From Opitutaceae bacterium (GTDB taxonomy: Bacteria; Verrucomicrobiota; Verrucomicrobiia; Opitutales; Opitutaceae): 34,151 bases of DNA. How positions within the stretch are numbered: the first letter of the stretch is position 1; the number at the start of each line of letters is the position of its first letter. A program made the translations under genes and the position numbers. This document shows, piece by piece, positions 11,655 through 21,392 of this stretch. The notes under the pieces are model-generated. The model had not been told where the DNA came from and did not search any database. It saw only the letters and a program-made list of their open reading frames with translations. The stretch is from positions 1-34,151 of the forward strand of contig JALOTV010000019.1 in assembly GCA_025457685.1 (NCBI GenBank), in the 5' to 3' direction.

Positions 11655-13220
11655 GTGAACACCCGTCCCATACGCCAAGTCGCCTCCCCGTTGCGTCTCC
11701 CGCTTGTCGGCCTCGCGCTTATTTTCTCCGCCGCGCTGCCCGCCCGCGCCGCGATTGAAAAGCTGGAGGTGACCTACGATTACGTTTCGCGCATCGCGGC
11801 CGATCGTGCCGCCGCGCCCTACAAGGAGCCGGATCGCGAGCTGCCCAAGCGTCTCGCCGAGCTGAACTACGACCAGATGCGCGATATCCGCTTCCGTCCG
11901 GAGCAGGCGCTCTGGCGAAACGAAAACCTTCCGTTTCACCTGCATTTTTTTCACCGCACAGGCTTTCACCGCGAGGCGATTCAGATCCGCGAGTTCAGCG
12001 CCACGCACGTGCAGACCGTCCCGTTTATTCGCGAGTTTTTCGACTACGGTAAATTGGTGAATCTCGGCTCGCTGCGTTCCTCGCTGGGCTATTCCGGATT
12101 TCGCCTGCATTATCCGCTCAACCGTCCCGACGTGTTTGACGAGCTGATCGTGTTTCACGGCGCGTCGTATTTCCGGGCGCTGGGGGCTGGCCAGATCTAC
12201 GGACTTTCGGCGCGCGGTCTGGCGGTGGACTCCGGCGTGCCGGACGTGATCGAGGAGTTTCCCGTTTTCACCGATTTCTGGATCGGCAAGCCCCGCCCGG
12301 GCGCGACCGCGATGCGCTTTTTTGCGTTGCTCGACAGCAAGAGCGTGGCCGGCGCCTATGAATTCACGGTGCAGCCGGGACGCCGCACGACGGTGAGCGT
12401 CCGGGCCAGGCTCTATGCGCGAGCCACGATGACCACGCCCGGTATCGCGCCGCTCACCAGCATGTTCTGGTTCGGGAAAAACGCCGACCGCCCCCAAGGC
12501 GACCCCCGCCCGCAGGTGCACGATTCGGACGGCTTGCTCGTTCACGCTGCAGATGGTGGCCACTACTGGCGTCCGCTGCAAAACCCGCGCCGCATTCTCA
12601 ACACCGATGTGCGGGTGGAAAATCCCACGCGCTTCGGCCTGATCCAGCGTGAACGCGACATCTCGGCCTACGAGGATTTTGAGGCGCGCTACCATGAGCG
12701 CCCGAGCTGCTGGATCGAGCCCATGGGAGAGTGGGGAGCCGGCAGCGTCCGCTTGGTGGAATTGCCCACCAACAGCGAATACGCCGACAACATCGTGGCC
12801 TACTGGATACCCGACAAGAAGCCCGTCCCCGGCCAGGTTTTCGAGATGGCCTACAAAATGTTTTGGGCGCTCGATCAGCCCGGTGCCGACTCGCTGGCCC
12901 GCGTGGAGTCCACCCGCATCGGCCACCTGCCTGGCGGCGGCGCGGGGCAGTTGTTCTGGATCGATTTTGCCGGCGCCGACCTGGGACAGCGCAGACCGGA
13001 CAATCTAGCTCCCGAGATCACGCTCGGGCCCGGAGCCCGCCTGCGTCACCAGACGCTTATCCGTCACCCGGGCATAGACGGCTGGCGTGTGGCCTTGCAA
13101 ATCGAGGACGCCACGACGCCCGATGCGGCGGGGGAGCGTCCGGCGGTGGAGTTGCGCGTGCGCCTGCGCGACGGCTACGAACCGATTTCCGAGACGTGGG
13201 TTTACACCTGGCTGCCATGA
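11655..13220 (+). CDS. opgG: Periplasmic glucan biosynthesis protein OpgG (MdoG)
   Basis: A 521-aa exported protein required for osmoregulated periplasmic glucan synthesis. An N-terminal signal peptide (LPLVGLALIFSAALPARAA, about residues 15-33) starts after a basic region. Family features include YDQMRDIRFRPEQALW, FHLHFFHRTGF, GYSGFRLHYPLN, FHGASYFRALG and FWIGKPRPGA, then a C-terminal immunoglobulin-like domain. The start is GTG at 11655. The OpgG N-terminal domain has been shown in other bacteria to act as a beta-1,2-glucan hydrolase-type fold. The next gene overlaps the stop by 4 bp (ATGA), and opgH follows, so the three form an operon. Confidence 0.93.
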   Translation: MNTRPIRQVASPLRLPLVGLALIFSAALPARAAIEKLEVTYDYVSRIAADRAAAPYKEPDRELPKRLAELNYDQMRDIRFRPEQALWRNENLPFHLHFFHRTGFHREAIQIREFSATHVQTVPFIREFFDYGKLVNLGSLRSSLGYSGFRLHYPLNRPDVFDELIVFHGASYFRALGAGQIYGLSARGLAVDSGVPDVIEEFPVFTDFWIGKPRPGATAMRFFALLDSKSVAGAYEFTVQPGRRTTVSVRARLYARATMTTPGIAPLTSMFWFGKNADRPQGDPRPQVHDSDGLLVHAADGGHYWRPLQNPRRILNTDVRVENPTRFGLIQRERDISAYEDFEARYHERPSCWIEPMGEWGAGSVRLVELPTNSEYADNIVAYWIPDKKPVPGQVFEMAYKMFWALDQPGADSLARVESTRIGHLPGGGAGQLFWIDFAGADLGQRRPDNLAPEITLGPGARLRHQTLIRHPGIDGWRVALQIEDATTPDAAGERPAVELRVRLRDGYEPISETWVYTWLP

Positions 13221-13825
13221 ATCCGGCCGTAACCGACGTGTTGTTGCCCGCCACGGACGCCGATCTCTCCGGTCCGGCGTGGGACGAGGCCTTTCTTCGC
13301 GTGGAGAGTTATCTGCGCGCCCATCAGATTGAGAGCCGGCTCGTGCTGAATCGACTCACCGTCGAGATTATCCGCGCCGCCCGGGCCAAGGCGCTGGAGC
13401 ACAAAGCCGCCAACCGCGGCACCGTCGATCCGGTGGCGGTGGCCATGGGCGAGGCGGAGCGCCGCACAACGGCCTGGTTCGCCCGGGTGTTGGGAGACGC
13501 GGCGGACCCCGACGACGAGCGTCTCGGCACGCGCGGACGCATCGCCCTCGTGATGGCCGATGTGCCCGCCCGCTGGCCCCGCGACTTTTTCGCCGACACG
13601 CCGCCACCGCCGGAGCTCGTCGAGGCGATGCGCGCCGCCTACATCGAGGCGGGGCCCGAGCTGGAGCTCACCCGCATGGTGCCGCGACCCTTCGACTTCG
13701 GTCCCATCGCCAACGTGGCCGACGAGGCGTGGAAGACCTTCGCCCGGTGGCCGGTGTTGCGCGCGATCTTCGGCTGGCTGGTTTTTCTCGGCCTGTTGGC
13801 CGGAGCGTGGTTCGCCACCCACTAG
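13217..13825 (+). CDS. Uncharacterised membrane protein between opgG and opgH, possible detached OpgH N-terminal region
   Basis: A 202-aa protein, mostly helical and soluble (1-178), with one C-terminal transmembrane segment (about 181-200, LRAIFGWLVFLGLLAGAWFA). It is translationally coupled to opgG and precedes opgH by 67 bp. The segment MVPRPFDFGPIANVADEAWK just before the membrane span recalls the SMFPDPWRTNP region of the cytoplasmic N-terminal part of E. coli OpgH. The OpgH encoded next lacks that roughly 130-residue N-terminal region. I infer that this gene may encode the OpgH regulatory N-terminus as a separate polypeptide. Otherwise its function is unknown. Confidence 0.75.
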   Translation: MNPAVTDVLLPATDADLSGPAWDEAFLRVESYLRAHQIESRLVLNRLTVEIIRAARAKALEHKAANRGTVDPVAVAMGEAERRTTAWFARVLGDAADPDDERLGTRGRIALVMADVPARWPRDFFADTPPPPELVEAMRAAYIEAGPELELTRMVPRPFDFGPIANVADEAWKTFARWPVLRAIFGWLVFLGLLAGAWFATH

Positions 13826-16294: not shown

Positions 16295-19267
16295 GTGTCA
16301 GCCAAAATTCTCCTAGTTCGCACAGGCCCAGATATCTTTAAGGCTAAAGCCATAGTGGCGGTAGAAACAGGCCTATATGGCAGAGATGTCTCCAGCCTTT
16401 CCGATTTGGAGATGGCCCTGAAGACCGAGCAGTTTGACCTCGTGGTGCACGATGGTTCCCAGCTTGGTGGACAGTCGCCCCTTTCCTTGGCTGAGAGCAT
16501 CCGCAGTCACCAACGCACCGCGCCCATTCTGTTGCTCTGCGAAAAGCCCGAGATGGACGTGATCGTGCGGGCTATTCGCCTTGGCGTGCGCGACTTGTTT
16601 CATCCGCCCTACAACTTGGGCGCATTTTTTTCCCGAGTCGCGGATCTTCTTCAGCCCCGACTCAACGGCAACTCGCCGTCCATCGCACAGCACTGCCAGC
16701 AGGAGATCACCTTTTTCTTGGCGGGAGAATCTTCCGGTCAGACTGCGTCCATCGCGGTTCCGACCGGCGAGGCAACAGGCTCGCCATCGACTCACGCGGA
16801 GCTCGAGCGACTGGCCCGTGAACTAAAGGCGGAGCAAGACCGCAGGGCGGAGATTGAGCGCCGCGTGGAGGAGCAAGCGCAGGAACTCGAAGCCAGGGAG
16901 CGGGCTCTTAAGAACGCGCAGCTCCAGTTGGACACAGAGCGCGAGCGCATCGAGACGGAAGGCCGCGAGCTCGCCGAGCTGCAGGCCGGGGTCGAAAAGG
17001 ATAAGAAGCAAAACGACAAGCGACTCGCCGAGCTGGCCAAGTCCGACAAAACGATCGCCCCCCAGCGCGCAGAGTTGGAGGCCGCGCAGGCCGCGCTCGC
17101 CGAGCGCGAAAGCATCGCCGCGAAAGACCGCCAGACGATCGCGCTGCAGCGCGCGGAGCTGGACGCAGAGCGCGCCGAACTCGCCGAGCTGAGCGCACAG
17201 ATCGAGAAGTCCCGCCTCGGCGCGCAGGAAATCGAGGCCGCTCTCGCCGCCCGACGCGCAGAGATCGAGATGGTCCGCAGCCAGCTCGCCGCCGAACAGG
17301 TGCGCATCGCCGACGAGGCGGAGGAGCTGGAGCAGGCCAAGGCCCAGGCCAGCGAATCGCTCAAAACCCACCAGAAGCGCAACCGGGCGCTTGCCGAGGC
17401 CGAGGCCGCCCTGGGCGAGCGCGAGGCGGCGTTGTTGGCCAACCAGACACGCCTGACCGCGCTCGAAAAAGCCATCACCGAGCGCGAGGAGAATTTCTCC
17501 ATGCGCGAGCGCTCGATCCAAGCGCAGGAAAAGAAAGTCGCCGCGCAGCTTTCGCGCGTTCGCGCCGAGGAGGAGACCTTTGCCGCCCGCCAAGCGGAGC
17601 TGGAAGTGGAGGAGGCGCGTTTGCAGCAGGACGCTAAGCGCGTGGCCGCCGACCGGGCCTCGCTTGAGAAAGAACGCGCGAGCATCGCCGATGCCGAGGC
17701 GGCATCCTTCAGTCGTGCCAAGGAACTGGCCCACGCCGAGGCCATGCTCGGCGAGCGCGAAGCCGCGCTGGCCGCCGGACAGAAGGCGATCGAATCCGAG
17801 CGCAAAAAAGCTTCCATCGCCCTGGCCGAGGCGGCTGCCCGCGAGCAGGCCCTCGCCGCCCGCGAGGCCCAGATCACGGCGGCGAATAGTTCGCTGGCGG
17901 CGGCTCAAAAGGAATTTGCCGAGCGCACCGCCAAACTTGAGACCGACCGCAAGCGGCTGTCCCAGGATACCTCGCGACTGGCCGATGAGGCCGAGGCACT
18001 AAAGGCCAGCGAGGCCAAGACCGTCACCGCCCGGCAGGAAGTCGAAAAACGTGTCGCCGCAAATCAAGCGGCCGAGGCCGCGCTCAAAAAGCGCGAGGAA
18101 GAGCTGGGCAAGGCCCGCAAGTCCGTGGACGAGGGCCAGGCCAAGCTCGATGCCCGCGATCAGCAACTCTCCAAACGCGCCGCCGAGCTTGCCGTGCTGG
18201 AAAAGAAAGCGGCCGAGCAGACCGAAGCCTTGAAGGCGGCCGAGACCAAGCTGGCCGACCAGCGCAAGACGTTGGACACGGAGCAGGGGCGCTTGAAAGC
18301 CGAGGAGACCCGTCTGGCGGCCGAGAAGCAGGCGAACGAAAAAGCCAAAGCCGAGACCGTCGCCGCCCTGGACGCGCACAAGAAGCGCGCCGCCGAACTC
18401 GCCAAGGCCGAGCTCGCGCTCGCCGAACGCGAGTCCTCGCTGAACTCGGTGCGCAAACAGCTCGACGCACGGACACACGAACTCGACGCCACGGCCGGCG
18501 AGTTTGAGAAACGTGCCGCCGCCTTGGCCGAGGCGGAAAAGAAACTGGGCGAGCGCATCGCCTCCGCGGATGCCGCGGACAAGGCGCTCGCCGAACGCAT
18601 CAAGAGCTCCGAGGCCGAACTTGCGGCCGCACGGGCACGCTCCGAAAGCGAACGCGCCCAGATCAAGGCCGATCAAGACGCCCTCGCCGCCCAGCGTGCC
18701 ACGCTGGAATCTGCCAAAACCGCCCATGCCGCCGCCGCCAAGGCCTTGGCCGAGCGTGAGCAGGCCCTGTCCACCCGCGAGGCTGAGGTTTCCAAGCGTG
18801 CAAGCGCGGTCGAGGCCGCGGCGCAAAAAAACACCCAGCTATCCAGCCAGCTCGAAAGCCGCGCCAAGGTCCTCGACGAACGAGACAAACGCCTCGACGC
18901 GCGGGTGGCCGCCGTCGGCGAGACCGAACAGCAGCTCGCCGCGGAAAAGAAGCAGCTCGCCGCTGAGCGCTCGCGGATCGAGGCCGATTCGGCCGGCGTC
19001 GAGGAAGCCAGCCACGAGATCCTGGCCCGCGAGAAGAAACTCAAGCAAAGCAGCGACCAAATCGCGCTCCTCCAGGCGGAGATCGACGCCGGACTGGCCG
19101 AGTTGGAAACCGCGCGCGCCGCCCTCGCCAAAGAGCGGTCCGCCTTGGAAAAATCCCGCGTCGAACACCAAGTGGAGCGCGAGGCCTTCGAGGCGGAGTG
19201 CGCCGTGCTCAAAAATCGCGAAAAGGCCTTTGAGGATCGCCGCAAAAAACTGCTCGAAGCACTTTAA
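16295..19267 (+). CDS. Degenerate receiver domain fused to a very long coiled coil
   Basis: A 990-aa protein. Residues 1 to about 125 look like a response-regulator receiver fold: KILLVRTGP strand, FDLVVHDGS with the Asp at the phosphorylation position, APILLLCEKP, and a final AIRLGVRDLFHPPYNLGAFF. The acidic pair after strand 1 and the conserved lysine (here Pro in HPPY) are missing, so phosphorylation is doubtful. From about 165 to 985 it is almost pure Ala/Glu/Lys/Arg heptad coiled coil with loosely repeating units such as AEAALGEREAAL and AEAMLGEREAAL. It has no signal peptide or membrane span. The start is GTG 16295 (MSAKIL). The PilM-like gene follows after 60 bp. The family is not one I can name; a scaffold or cytoskeleton-like role at the envelope is a guess. 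Confidence 0.8.
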   Translation: MSAKILLVRTGPDIFKAKAIVAVETGLYGRDVSSLSDLEMALKTEQFDLVVHDGSQLGGQSPLSLAESIRSHQRTAPILLLCEKPEMDVIVRAIRLGVRDLFHPPYNLGAFFSRVADLLQPRLNGNSPSIAQHCQQEITFFLAGESSGQTASIAVPTGEATGSPSTHAELERLARELKAEQDRRAEIERRVEEQAQELEARERALKNAQLQLDTERERIETEGRELAELQAGVEKDKKQNDKRLAELAKSDKTIAPQRAELEAAQAALAERESIAAKDRQTIALQRAELDAERAELAELSAQIEKSRLGAQEIEAALAARRAEIEMVRSQLAAEQVRIADEAEELEQAKAQASESLKTHQKRNRALAEAEAALGEREAALLANQTRLTALEKAITEREENFSMRERSIQAQEKKVAAQLSRVRAEEETFAARQAELEVEEARLQQDAKRVAADRASLEKERASIADAEAASFSRAKELAHAEAMLGEREAALAAGQKAIESERKKASIALAEAAAREQALAAREAQITAANSSLAAAQKEFAERTAKLETDRKRLSQDTSRLADEAEALKASEAKTVTARQEVEKRVAANQAAEAALKKREEELGKARKSVDEGQAKLDARDQQLSKRAAELAVLEKKAAEQTEALKAAETKLADQRKTLDTEQGRLKAEETRLAAEKQANEKAKAETVAALDAHKKRAAELAKAELALAERESSLNSVRKQLDARTHELDATAGEFEKRAAALAEAEKKLGERIASADAADKALAERIKSSEAELAAARARSESERAQIKADQDALAAQRATLESAKTAHAAAAKALAEREQALSTREAEVSKRASAVEAAAQKNTQLSSQLESRAKVLDERDKRLDARVAAVGETEQQLAAEKKQLAAERSRIEADSAGVEEASHEILAREKKLKQSSDQIALLQAEIDAGLAELETARAALAKERSALEKSRVEHQVEREAFEAECAVLKNREKAFEDRRKKLLEAL

Positions 19268-19327
19268 GTGTCCACTTTTCGACCCCTTTCTGTATCCAGC
19301 CACCACCCCAGACTTCACGTTTAACCC

Positions 19328-21328
19328 ATGTCCAACCCCTCCGCTTCTCCGCTCGCATTCGCCGAACTCGCACCGCACTCGATCCAGATCGCCGTGCTGT
19401 CGGGTAATAAAGTCGTCGCGGCTCGCGCCTTCTCCCTCGATGCCAAGGCGGACTTGGCCGCGTTCGTTTCCGAAAATCAGCTGACGTGCCTCGTCCGGGC
19501 CTCGGTGATAGGCATCAAGAATTTTGTCCACCGTTCCGGCGAGGCGGAATCTGGTGCGGTGCGTCAGCCGGGCGCGCTCCAGGCGCACGCCGCCAAGTTG
19601 CCGCACGGGTTCGACGGCGTCCCTCTGGCCGTGGCCGTGGATGCGGCCTCCGGCGGCGCACCCGATGCCGCCCGCGTGACGCCTTGGGTGCTGGCGGCGG
19701 TCGACGCCGCCAGTGTCGCCAACGCCCGCGATTTCCTGCAGGCCGCAGGTTTGGTCACTGCGGAAATCACCGTCGCGGCCACGGCGCATGTGGGCGCTGT
19801 GGCGACAGGTCTGCCCGCCGGGCAAACCGCGCTCGTGCTCATTCCCGGCGAAGACAGCGCCCAGTTGGTCTGGGTGACTGGCGAGGGCGTGCAGGCCGTG
19901 TCCGCCGCTCCGGTGGGTTTTGGCAAAATCTACGAGGCCGTGCAGCTGGGGCTCGGGCTCAAGTTCAAAGCTGCCGCCGGCAAACTCTTCTACAACGAGA
20001 GTTACGATTTCTCGGATGCGGCCGCCAAGATTGCCGGTATCCTTGCGGACCAGCTAAAGCCCGCTTTGGAAAATCGCCGCGCCACCCACCTTCACCTGGC
20101 GGGTCTCGTGCCCAGCCAGGCGTGGCTGGCCAAGTCTCTCTCCGCTTCGCTGGGCATGAGCGCATGGTCGCCCGTGGTCGGCAACCAAGCGTCGCGCTCG
20201 GGTCTGGATGTCGAGGCGGGCCTCCTCACCGCGGCCACGTCCGGTTTGCTGAAGCTCGCCGCGGCCGGCTCCGGCAATTCCGCCTGGGTTCAATCCAGTC
20301 TCGAAACTCTTGCCGCCGCTCGCCCACGCACCGCCGCGCCTTTCCCTGCGGCCGCCGCCGTCCCTGAGCCCCGTCCCAAACCCGTGCTGCGCCCCGCGCC
20401 CGCTCCGGCTCCGATCGAGGAGGTGCAAGTCCAGGCGGCCGCGCCATCTGCCGTCCAGGCCCCCAGAAAGAGCAACAAGGGCCCCGTCCTGATCGCCACC
20501 ACGGTGGGCGTCGTGGCCGCGGTGGTGGGCCTCGCCGCCTACTTCCGTCGTCCGCCCGAGCTGCCCGCCGATCGCGCGGCCACGCCCGCCGTGAGTCCCG
20601 CGGCCACGCCTGCGCCCGAGGCTGCCAAGCCCGCGCCCGCCCCTGTCGCCACCGCACCGGCTCCGGTGGTCGCGCCCGCCCCCGCCGCGATCGTCTCGTC
20701 GGATCTGTCCTCCGCCGACGCTCGGCGCTTTGGCAACGAGCGCTATCGTTTCGAGGTCACCGAAAAGGGTTTCATCCAAGCATTGGCGTCCAGCCGTGAC
20801 GAAGTGTTGGTGGAATCCGCCGCCGGCATCAGCCTGCAAGGCAGCTACGTGGGCACCGATGGTCGCCGCAAGTGGTTCAATGTCGGAGGCGTTGACGACA
20901 TCGGCTACCAGGCGACGGTGAACAAGACGGTCAGGGACGGGGTGACGGTGTTTGACGTGAAGGTCACCCACCCACGCTTCGAACTCGCGCAGACGTTCTC
21001 CTGCCTGCCCGATTCCATCAAGGTGTCGGCCAAGTTCACGCCCATCAACCTCCGCGATCCCCGCGGCGTGATCGCCGCCGTGCACTCGGTCCGCCTCTCG
21101 CCCGTGGCGCTGAATCCCTCGCTGCGCATGCGTGCGACAAGCGATGGCTTCGCCTACGCGATGAAGGCCGGCACGCTGCGCATCAACCATGACAACGTCA
21201 CATGGGCGCGTGATGGCGCGGATGGACGCCAGACCATCATCGCGGGCGAGAACGGCGCCGCCTTCCACTTCACCGAGACCACCGAGGCTTCGCGCAACAC
21301 GCTCAACTACGAGATCGTGCTGCCCTGA
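19328..21328 (+). CDS. PilM-like actin-fold protein with a transmembrane span and periplasmic domain
   Basis: A 666-aa protein. Residues 1-330 resemble the actin/ASKHA-fold cytoplasmic domain of PilM/GspL-type proteins: an FAELAPHSIQIAVL opening, an internal duplicated strand layout, and VGFGKIYEAVQLGLGLKF plus DVEAGLLTAATSG segments. This similarity is recognised by pattern and is not certain. A Pro/Ala-rich linker (about 335-382) leads to one transmembrane segment (386-405, PVLIATTVGVVAAVVGLAAY). A second Pro/Ala linker follows, then a C-terminal beta-rich domain (460-666) presumably in the periplasm. The layout resembles GspL, but no pilin or secretion genes are nearby. It probably works with the coiled-coil protein upstream. 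A strong terminator follows. Confidence 0.75.
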   Translation: MSNPSASPLAFAELAPHSIQIAVLSGNKVVAARAFSLDAKADLAAFVSENQLTCLVRASVIGIKNFVHRSGEAESGAVRQPGALQAHAAKLPHGFDGVPLAVAVDAASGGAPDAARVTPWVLAAVDAASVANARDFLQAAGLVTAEITVAATAHVGAVATGLPAGQTALVLIPGEDSAQLVWVTGEGVQAVSAAPVGFGKIYEAVQLGLGLKFKAAAGKLFYNESYDFSDAAAKIAGILADQLKPALENRRATHLHLAGLVPSQAWLAKSLSASLGMSAWSPVVGNQASRSGLDVEAGLLTAATSGLLKLAAAGSGNSAWVQSSLETLAAARPRTAAPFPAAAAVPEPRPKPVLRPAPAPAPIEEVQVQAAAPSAVQAPRKSNKGPVLIATTVGVVAAVVGLAAYFRRPPELPADRAATPAVSPAATPAPEAAKPAPAPVATAPAPVVAPAPAAIVSSDLSSADARRFGNERYRFEVTEKGFIQALASSRDEVLVESAAGISLQGSYVGTDGRRKWFNVGGVDDIGYQATVNKTVRDGVTVFDVKVTHPRFELAQTFSCLPDSIKVSAKFTPINLRDPRGVIAAVHSVRLSPVALNPSLRMRATSDGFAYAMKAGTLRINHDNVTWARDGADGRQTIIAGENGAAFHFTETTEASRNTLNYEIVLP

Positions 21329-21361: not shown

Positions 21362-21392
21362 AGGCCGGCTCCCACGGGAGCCGGCCTATTTT
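21362..21392 (+). terminator. Rho-independent terminator after the PilM-like gene
   Basis: A perfect inverted repeat aggccggctccc/gggagccggcct (at least 11 bp, short loop) is followed by ATTTTG. It separates the coiled-coil/PilM-like unit from psd. Confidence 0.85.

Follow-up and report, generated by a model that had tools for sequence, protein, structure and literature searches.

Organization of the locus

The window analyzed here is a stretch of 34,151 nucleotides from an Opitutaceae bacterium, corresponding to contig C239 of a source genome that is 77.5% complete. It encodes, on the forward strand and separated by only 60 bp, a long coil protein and a PilM-like membrane protein, with a terminator-like hairpin behind them. 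A first-pass annotation of the same DNA had placed both reading frames at these positions, with no pilus genes nearby and a terminator closing the unit, and all of this is borne out. The features of the locus are as follows:

16295..19267, + strand: coil protein, whole gene, 990 aa, start GTG (open reading frame plus genus orthologues)
16295..16669, + strand: pseudo-receiver head, residues 1-125 (Response_reg, 22.3 bits; family profile against PDB receivers, 1e-14)
16799..19174, + strand: heptad-periodic helical rod, ~residues 169-960 (period 3.50)
19175..19264, + strand: conserved C-terminal tail (FEDRRKKLLEAL region), motif F[EDAQ]x[KRH][RQKHSN][KRQE]
19328..21328, + strand: PilM-like membrane protein, whole gene, 666 aa, start ATG (open reading frame plus genus orthologues)
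19328..20332, + strand: PilM-like actin-fold domain, residues 1-335 (profile A1 to pilM-operon PilM, ~1e-40)
20336..20470, + strand: cytoplasmic Pro/Ala-rich linker (56% P+A)
20486..20542, + strand: single membrane span, residues 387-405 (hydropathy 2.25; preceded by RKSNK)
20549..20692, + strand: periplasmic Pro/Ala-rich linker (68% P+A)
20702..21325, + strand: C-terminal domain, a family of its own, predicted periplasmic (62-83% identity within the genus, 31-36% in genus g45)
21362..21387, + strand: terminator-like hairpin 3' of the pair (11-pair stem, 9 GC; GC-rich, short T-run)

Both reading frames show third-position GC bias, and orthologues of both genes are found in at least seven genomes of the same genus, with ~50-77% identity over their domains. 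The GTG start of the coil gene (VSAKILLVRTGP) is conserved. Two reverse-strand frames of 361 and 404 aa that lie over the genes were discounted as shadow frames, the conserved proteins being those read in the forward frames.

Genomic neighborhood analysis places opgG (MdoG, E 5e-173) and an opgH-like glycosyltransferase gene upstream of the pair and psd downstream, with no pilus gene among the neighbors. The order opgG, ~200-aa ORF, opgH, coil, PilM-like, psd is found at most contig-covered positions in G003, G006, G008, G010 and G012, G008 carrying a different gene at the psd position; it is partly preserved in the broken contigs of other same-genus genomes and is found also in genus g177 (L123). 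The ~200-aa ORF between opgG and opgH (window positions 13217-13822, AWDEAFLRVESYLR, with a C-terminal membrane span) is itself conserved in several genomes, and the one relative that was scanned matched no Pfam family.

The coil protein: a pseudo-receiver head, a rod and a conserved tail

The head of the coil protein scores under the Pfam cut-off for Response_reg, while the profile of its family matches receivers of known structure. The acidic pair and the Lys are lost in 17/17 heads, the Lys being replaced by Pro, whereas the phospho-acceptor-like Asp is retained in 15/17, a point on which the first-pass annotation, correct about the losses, was silent. The head is thus a receiver fold without the phosphotransfer residues and, judged by these residues, its phosphorylation chemistry has been lost. 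The best matches of the head profile in the PDB are generic receivers, and none of the 60 matches listed carries the name FrzS.

Behind the head, ~820 residues form a heptad-periodic helix, as first proposed. The hydrophobic period is exactly 3.50, with a power of 66.5 (99% of shuffles remain below 9.1), and the periodicity is certain. One heptad register runs from about residue 169 to 750 and, after a single shift, a second continues to the end. When composition is read by register, each heptad has a single L/I/V core position, and the expected second core position is rich in R, E and A. With a single apolar core position instead of two, the sequence does not dictate an oligomeric state, and a stable coiled-coil filament is not assured. 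The SMC, FlbB and HmpF models that hmmscan aligns with the coil score far under the cut-offs and reflect coil composition.

A constant tail follows a rod of variable length. Coil proteins measure 605-1147 aa within the genus of the window and 230-2450 aa overall, with a heptad period of ~3.5 in those measured. The tail motif occurs within the last ~25 residues of 24/27 family f1 proteins versus 0/1107 interior windows, a descriptive count given that the motif was picked after viewing the tails and that the sequences are related. By pattern, it is also present in 7/8 of the headless short coils of genus g179 (230-263 aa). It is missing from the coils of G034 and G269 and from those of family f21.

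Another receiver-coil paralogue is encoded without a PilM partner (L105 6473-8194, L106 6438-8123, L107 6390-8057, L108 8427-13055 and L109 5061-9194) and, in G026 and G033, lies beside a gene that is PEP carboxykinase-like. Its members have other tails, three of them ending in a different conserved sequence, GPLRIGR. Tail and neighborhood together exclude the paralogues near the PEP carboxykinase-like gene as orthologues of the coil protein.

The PilM-like protein: a conserved cytoplasmic domain and a variable periplasmic module

The 666-aa protein by itself has no match in a Pfam scan. However, profile A1, which covers 14 relatives, recovers the plain PilM of the lineage (348-350 aa) at ~1e-40 over 320 positions. 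By this homology the N-terminal domain belongs to the PilM/actin-like superfamily, and its sequence kinship with PilM is real. In the PDB, PilM is the sole match of the domain, a weak one (E 0.28); the best Foldseek match is the PilM-PilN structure 2ych (E 1.1e-4), obtained with a weak AlphaFold model (pLDDT ~45). The first-pass description of a PilM-like domain with one span between Pro/Ala linkers therefore stands.

In G018, G029 and G020, the gene for the plain PilM of the lineage shares its operon with a secretin gene (E 4.5e-49 for the secretin of G018) and with genes for small single-span proteins, one of which is weakly PilO/GspM-like. In a tree, these operon PilMs form a supported clade separate from the forms with a membrane span, the deeper branches being without resolution. 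The source genome also encodes, on contig C323 (L083 153-1880), a membrane-spanning PilM_2 protein of 575 aa, a GspL-like fusion.

Beyond the span, the protein differs between genera. In most of them, three to four PEGA repeats and a TonB_C domain follow the span, above the Pfam cut-offs in the proteins scanned. The window-type C-terminal domain, an orphan for which no Pfam or PDB relative was found, occurs in genera g1, g45 and g177; TonB_C, present in the long forms of other genera, was not found in the window protein. In genus g21 (G034, G269), the PilM-like protein stops right after the span, without a periplasmic module. The domain announced by the first-pass annotation as large and beta-rich is strand-rich only in a poor AlphaFold model (pLDDT 45), and Foldseek with this model returned nothing under 0.1. 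Kinship with a YidC-type supersandwich (PF14849) found no support: the hhalign probability was 0.1%, equal to that of negative controls, for a YidC alignment that was automatically assembled and in which some rows may be in wrong frames.

The sole relative of the orphan domain found outside PilM-like proteins is a stand-alone 247-aa protein from another family (L103 7573-8316, G141), encoded beside a GH31 glycosidase gene. Its signal-like N-terminus agrees with a periplasmic location of the orphan domain.

Association of the two genes across relatives

A sample of 250 genomes of the family yielded 69 profile matches, one of them a plain PilM, leaving 68 PilM-like genes. A coil gene adjoins 48/68. 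The coil is receiver-headed beside 37 of them, in tandem at 20 loci and divergent at 17, with starts 183-416 bp apart in the latter; the tandem PilM-like gene of G343 lacks the membrane span. Three further PilM-like genes lie beside coil fragments cut at contig ends, and eight, all in genus g179, are preceded at a distance of ~30 bp by a short coil gene without a receiver. Another family of the order has the pair as well (G177 and G204, and G056 with a headless coil). Its neighborhoods differ (opgH/psd, uxaE-like, lpd-like, PDH-like), and the paired loci read have unrelated neighbors and lie in no pilus or T2SS operon, the pilM-secretin operon included. Scans of viral contigs found no further homologues.

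That the pairing recurs in either orientation and amid differing neighbors is strong evidence that the coil and PilM-like genes are functionally linked, the change of neighborhood arguing against passive linkage. There are exceptions. About 20/68 PilM-like genes have no coil neighbor (among them all those seen in g8, those in g11, and second copies in both g45 and G392), and coils without a PilM-like partner occur in G009, G352 and G421; the two parts can thus be lost or kept separately. The first-pass annotation had named two observations that would speak against its proposal: homologues of the 666-aa protein found routinely inside pilus or type II secretion operons, and the two genes occurring independently of each other. 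The former was seen at none of the loci read, and the latter holds for the minority of PilM-like genes and the few coils just listed.

Several loci depart from the two-gene arrangement. The same-genus genome G005, 99% complete, retains beside opgH, as a relic of the PilM-like gene, only the part for its 92 C-terminal residues (L100/L081 466-732, G005:C111); either a deletion removed the pair or the contig is misassembled at its edge. G096 has a second, coil-less PilM-like copy beside psd (L085 7674-9734), with ExbB/ExbD-like genes 4-6 kb downstream. Two tandem PilM-like genes without a coil are found in G392 (L120 2646-7086), which also has a paired copy.

Comparison with known systems

The first-pass annotation could match neither full architecture to a named family; this no longer holds, since the anchor has the plan of GspL/BfpC and the coil that of FrzS/AglZ. 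In GspL of the T2SS and BfpC of type IVb pili, a PilM-fold cytoplasmic domain is joined to a membrane span (PMC4471445), as it is in the 666-aa protein. Unlike these, the pair has no adjoining pilus or T2SS genes, either in the window or at any paired locus read, and the partner is a pseudo-receiver coil. The periplasmic fold of GspL is ferredoxin-like; the corresponding position here holds the PEGA/TonB_C array or the orphan domain, which has no Pfam or PDB match and is poorly modeled. The closest sequence relative of the N-terminal domain is the operon PilM, which differs in its length (~350 aa), in lacking a membrane span, in sharing an operon with a secretin and in forming a separate clade.

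FrzS and AglZ of Myxococcus xanthus consist of an N-terminal pseudo-receiver, a long coiled coil and a distinct C-terminal tail (PMC1974792), a plan that the coil protein shares. FrzS lacks the Asp that most heads retain here, and the partner of the coil is a PilM-like membrane protein. MglB (Robl_LC7, PF03259), the partner of MglA in the FrzS/AglZ polarity circuits, is absent from 38/38 relatives in which controls were detected, which disfavors a Myxococcus-type MglA/MglB polarity or gliding circuit. The long PEGA/TonB_C forms recall GltG, in which a cytoplasmic FHA domain is followed by one membrane span, a Pro-rich part and a TonB_C end (PMC3169522); the cytoplasmic signaling-type domain is nevertheless PilM-like here, and the AglRQS motor genes with which GltG works were not found beside the pair. 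HmpF of cyanobacteria is described as coiled-coil-rich, filament-forming and linked to type IV pili (PMC7002697, PMC12288463). Its NCBIfam model matches the coil region weakly, well under the cut-off and by coil composition only. HmpF is not known to have a PilM-like partner.

Each half of the pair resembles known architectures, GspL/BfpC on one side and, in plan, FrzS/AglZ/GltG on the other, while their combination is undescribed in the open-access literature searched. Nothing was found there on PilM with PEGA or TonB domains, or on PilM in Verrucomicrobiota.

A candidate envelope-anchored scaffold and its alternatives

We propose, with a probability of about one half, that the two proteins form a two-part envelope-anchored scaffold, in which a PilM paralogue would serve as anchor and a long rod would dock on it through its C-terminal tail. 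The 666-aa protein would be a PilM paralogue equipped with a membrane span and a swappable periplasmic module, acting outside the pilus machine in a role comparable to that of the docking part which GspL and BfpC have in the cytoplasm. The conserved tail of the coil would dock on the PilM-like domain as the PilN peptide does on PilM, a contact suggested by the conservation of the tail motif and by the known PilN-PilM contact (PMC4471445). Fully extended, the rod could reach up to ~120 nm; it would either keep the pseudo-receiver head away from the membrane or bundle into a filament. The head would be offered to a cytoplasmic partner, sensing or binding something by protein contact. On the other side of the membrane, the periplasmic part would probably grip peptidoglycan or the outer membrane, as the PEGA and TonB_C domains of the relatives suggest. 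The envelope-anchored rod of the first-pass annotation fits the anatomy, and a conserved pair and a PilM paralogue outside the pilM operon are both found; filament formation and envelope anchoring are inferred. The unpaired PilM-like genes and coils, and the anchors of G034 and G269, which lack the periplasmic module and whose coils lack the tail motif, speak against the scaffold, as do the f21 coils without that motif and, for a stable filament, the single apolar core position. A less probable formulation is that of an undescribed bacterial envelope-cytoskeleton linker: a PilM paralogue freed from the pilus would be the membrane receptor for rod tails, carry interchangeable grips (PEGA/TonB_C, the orphan domain or none) and position a pseudo-receiver relay.

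The pair could instead have an accessory role, regulating or positioning the type IV pilus or type II-like machine that the lineage itself encodes. The PilM-like protein would then join PilM, or compete with it, at the pilMNO-secretin complex, and the coil would position or gate the machine in the manner of FrzS at Myxococcus pili. The head-coil-tail plan common to FrzS (PMC1974792) favors this, as do the abundance of T2SSE ATPases in relatives and the operon in which plain PilM accompanies PilN/PilO-like genes and the secretin (G018, G029, G020). Plain PilM is moreover present in 12/12 Opitutales genomes with a membrane-span type protein versus 24/40 without it (class sample; Fisher p 0.010, a test that ignores kinship). 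Yet the pilM operon is common anyway, the same 24 genomes having plain PilM without the pair, and at the loci read the pair never lies within that operon, whose PilMs form their own clade. A pilus-accessory role is a real alternative, though less probable than the scaffold.

Less probable still is a force-transmitting complex like those of gliding or focal adhesions, in which the coil would correspond to AglZ and the TonB_C membrane protein to GltG. It is favored by the pseudo-receiver/coil plan of AglZ and FrzS and by the analogy between the FHA and TonB_C ends of GltG (PMC3169522) and the PilM-like/span/TonB_C series, but TonB_C is missing in the window's own genus and in g21, MglB is absent, and no AglRQS-type operon lies beside the pair, the ExbB/D-like genes near the second copy of G096 excepted. 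That the genes have no functional relation and simply happen to be neighbors is very improbable: each does occur alone in some relatives, but the pairing persists over several genera and in two families, in either orientation and in varied neighborhoods, which is unexpected under passive linkage.

If the scaffold reading is true, Verrucomicrobiota would have turned a core pilus-assembly domain into a general site at which long cytoplasmic rods dock to the membrane. The pair would constitute a small envelope scaffold of two genes whose predicted docking motif is directly testable, and its relatives, with coils of 230 to 2450 aa, would offer a natural series in which to study the effect of rod length. 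It would also be a place to learn what a pseudo-receiver that has kept its Asp responds to.
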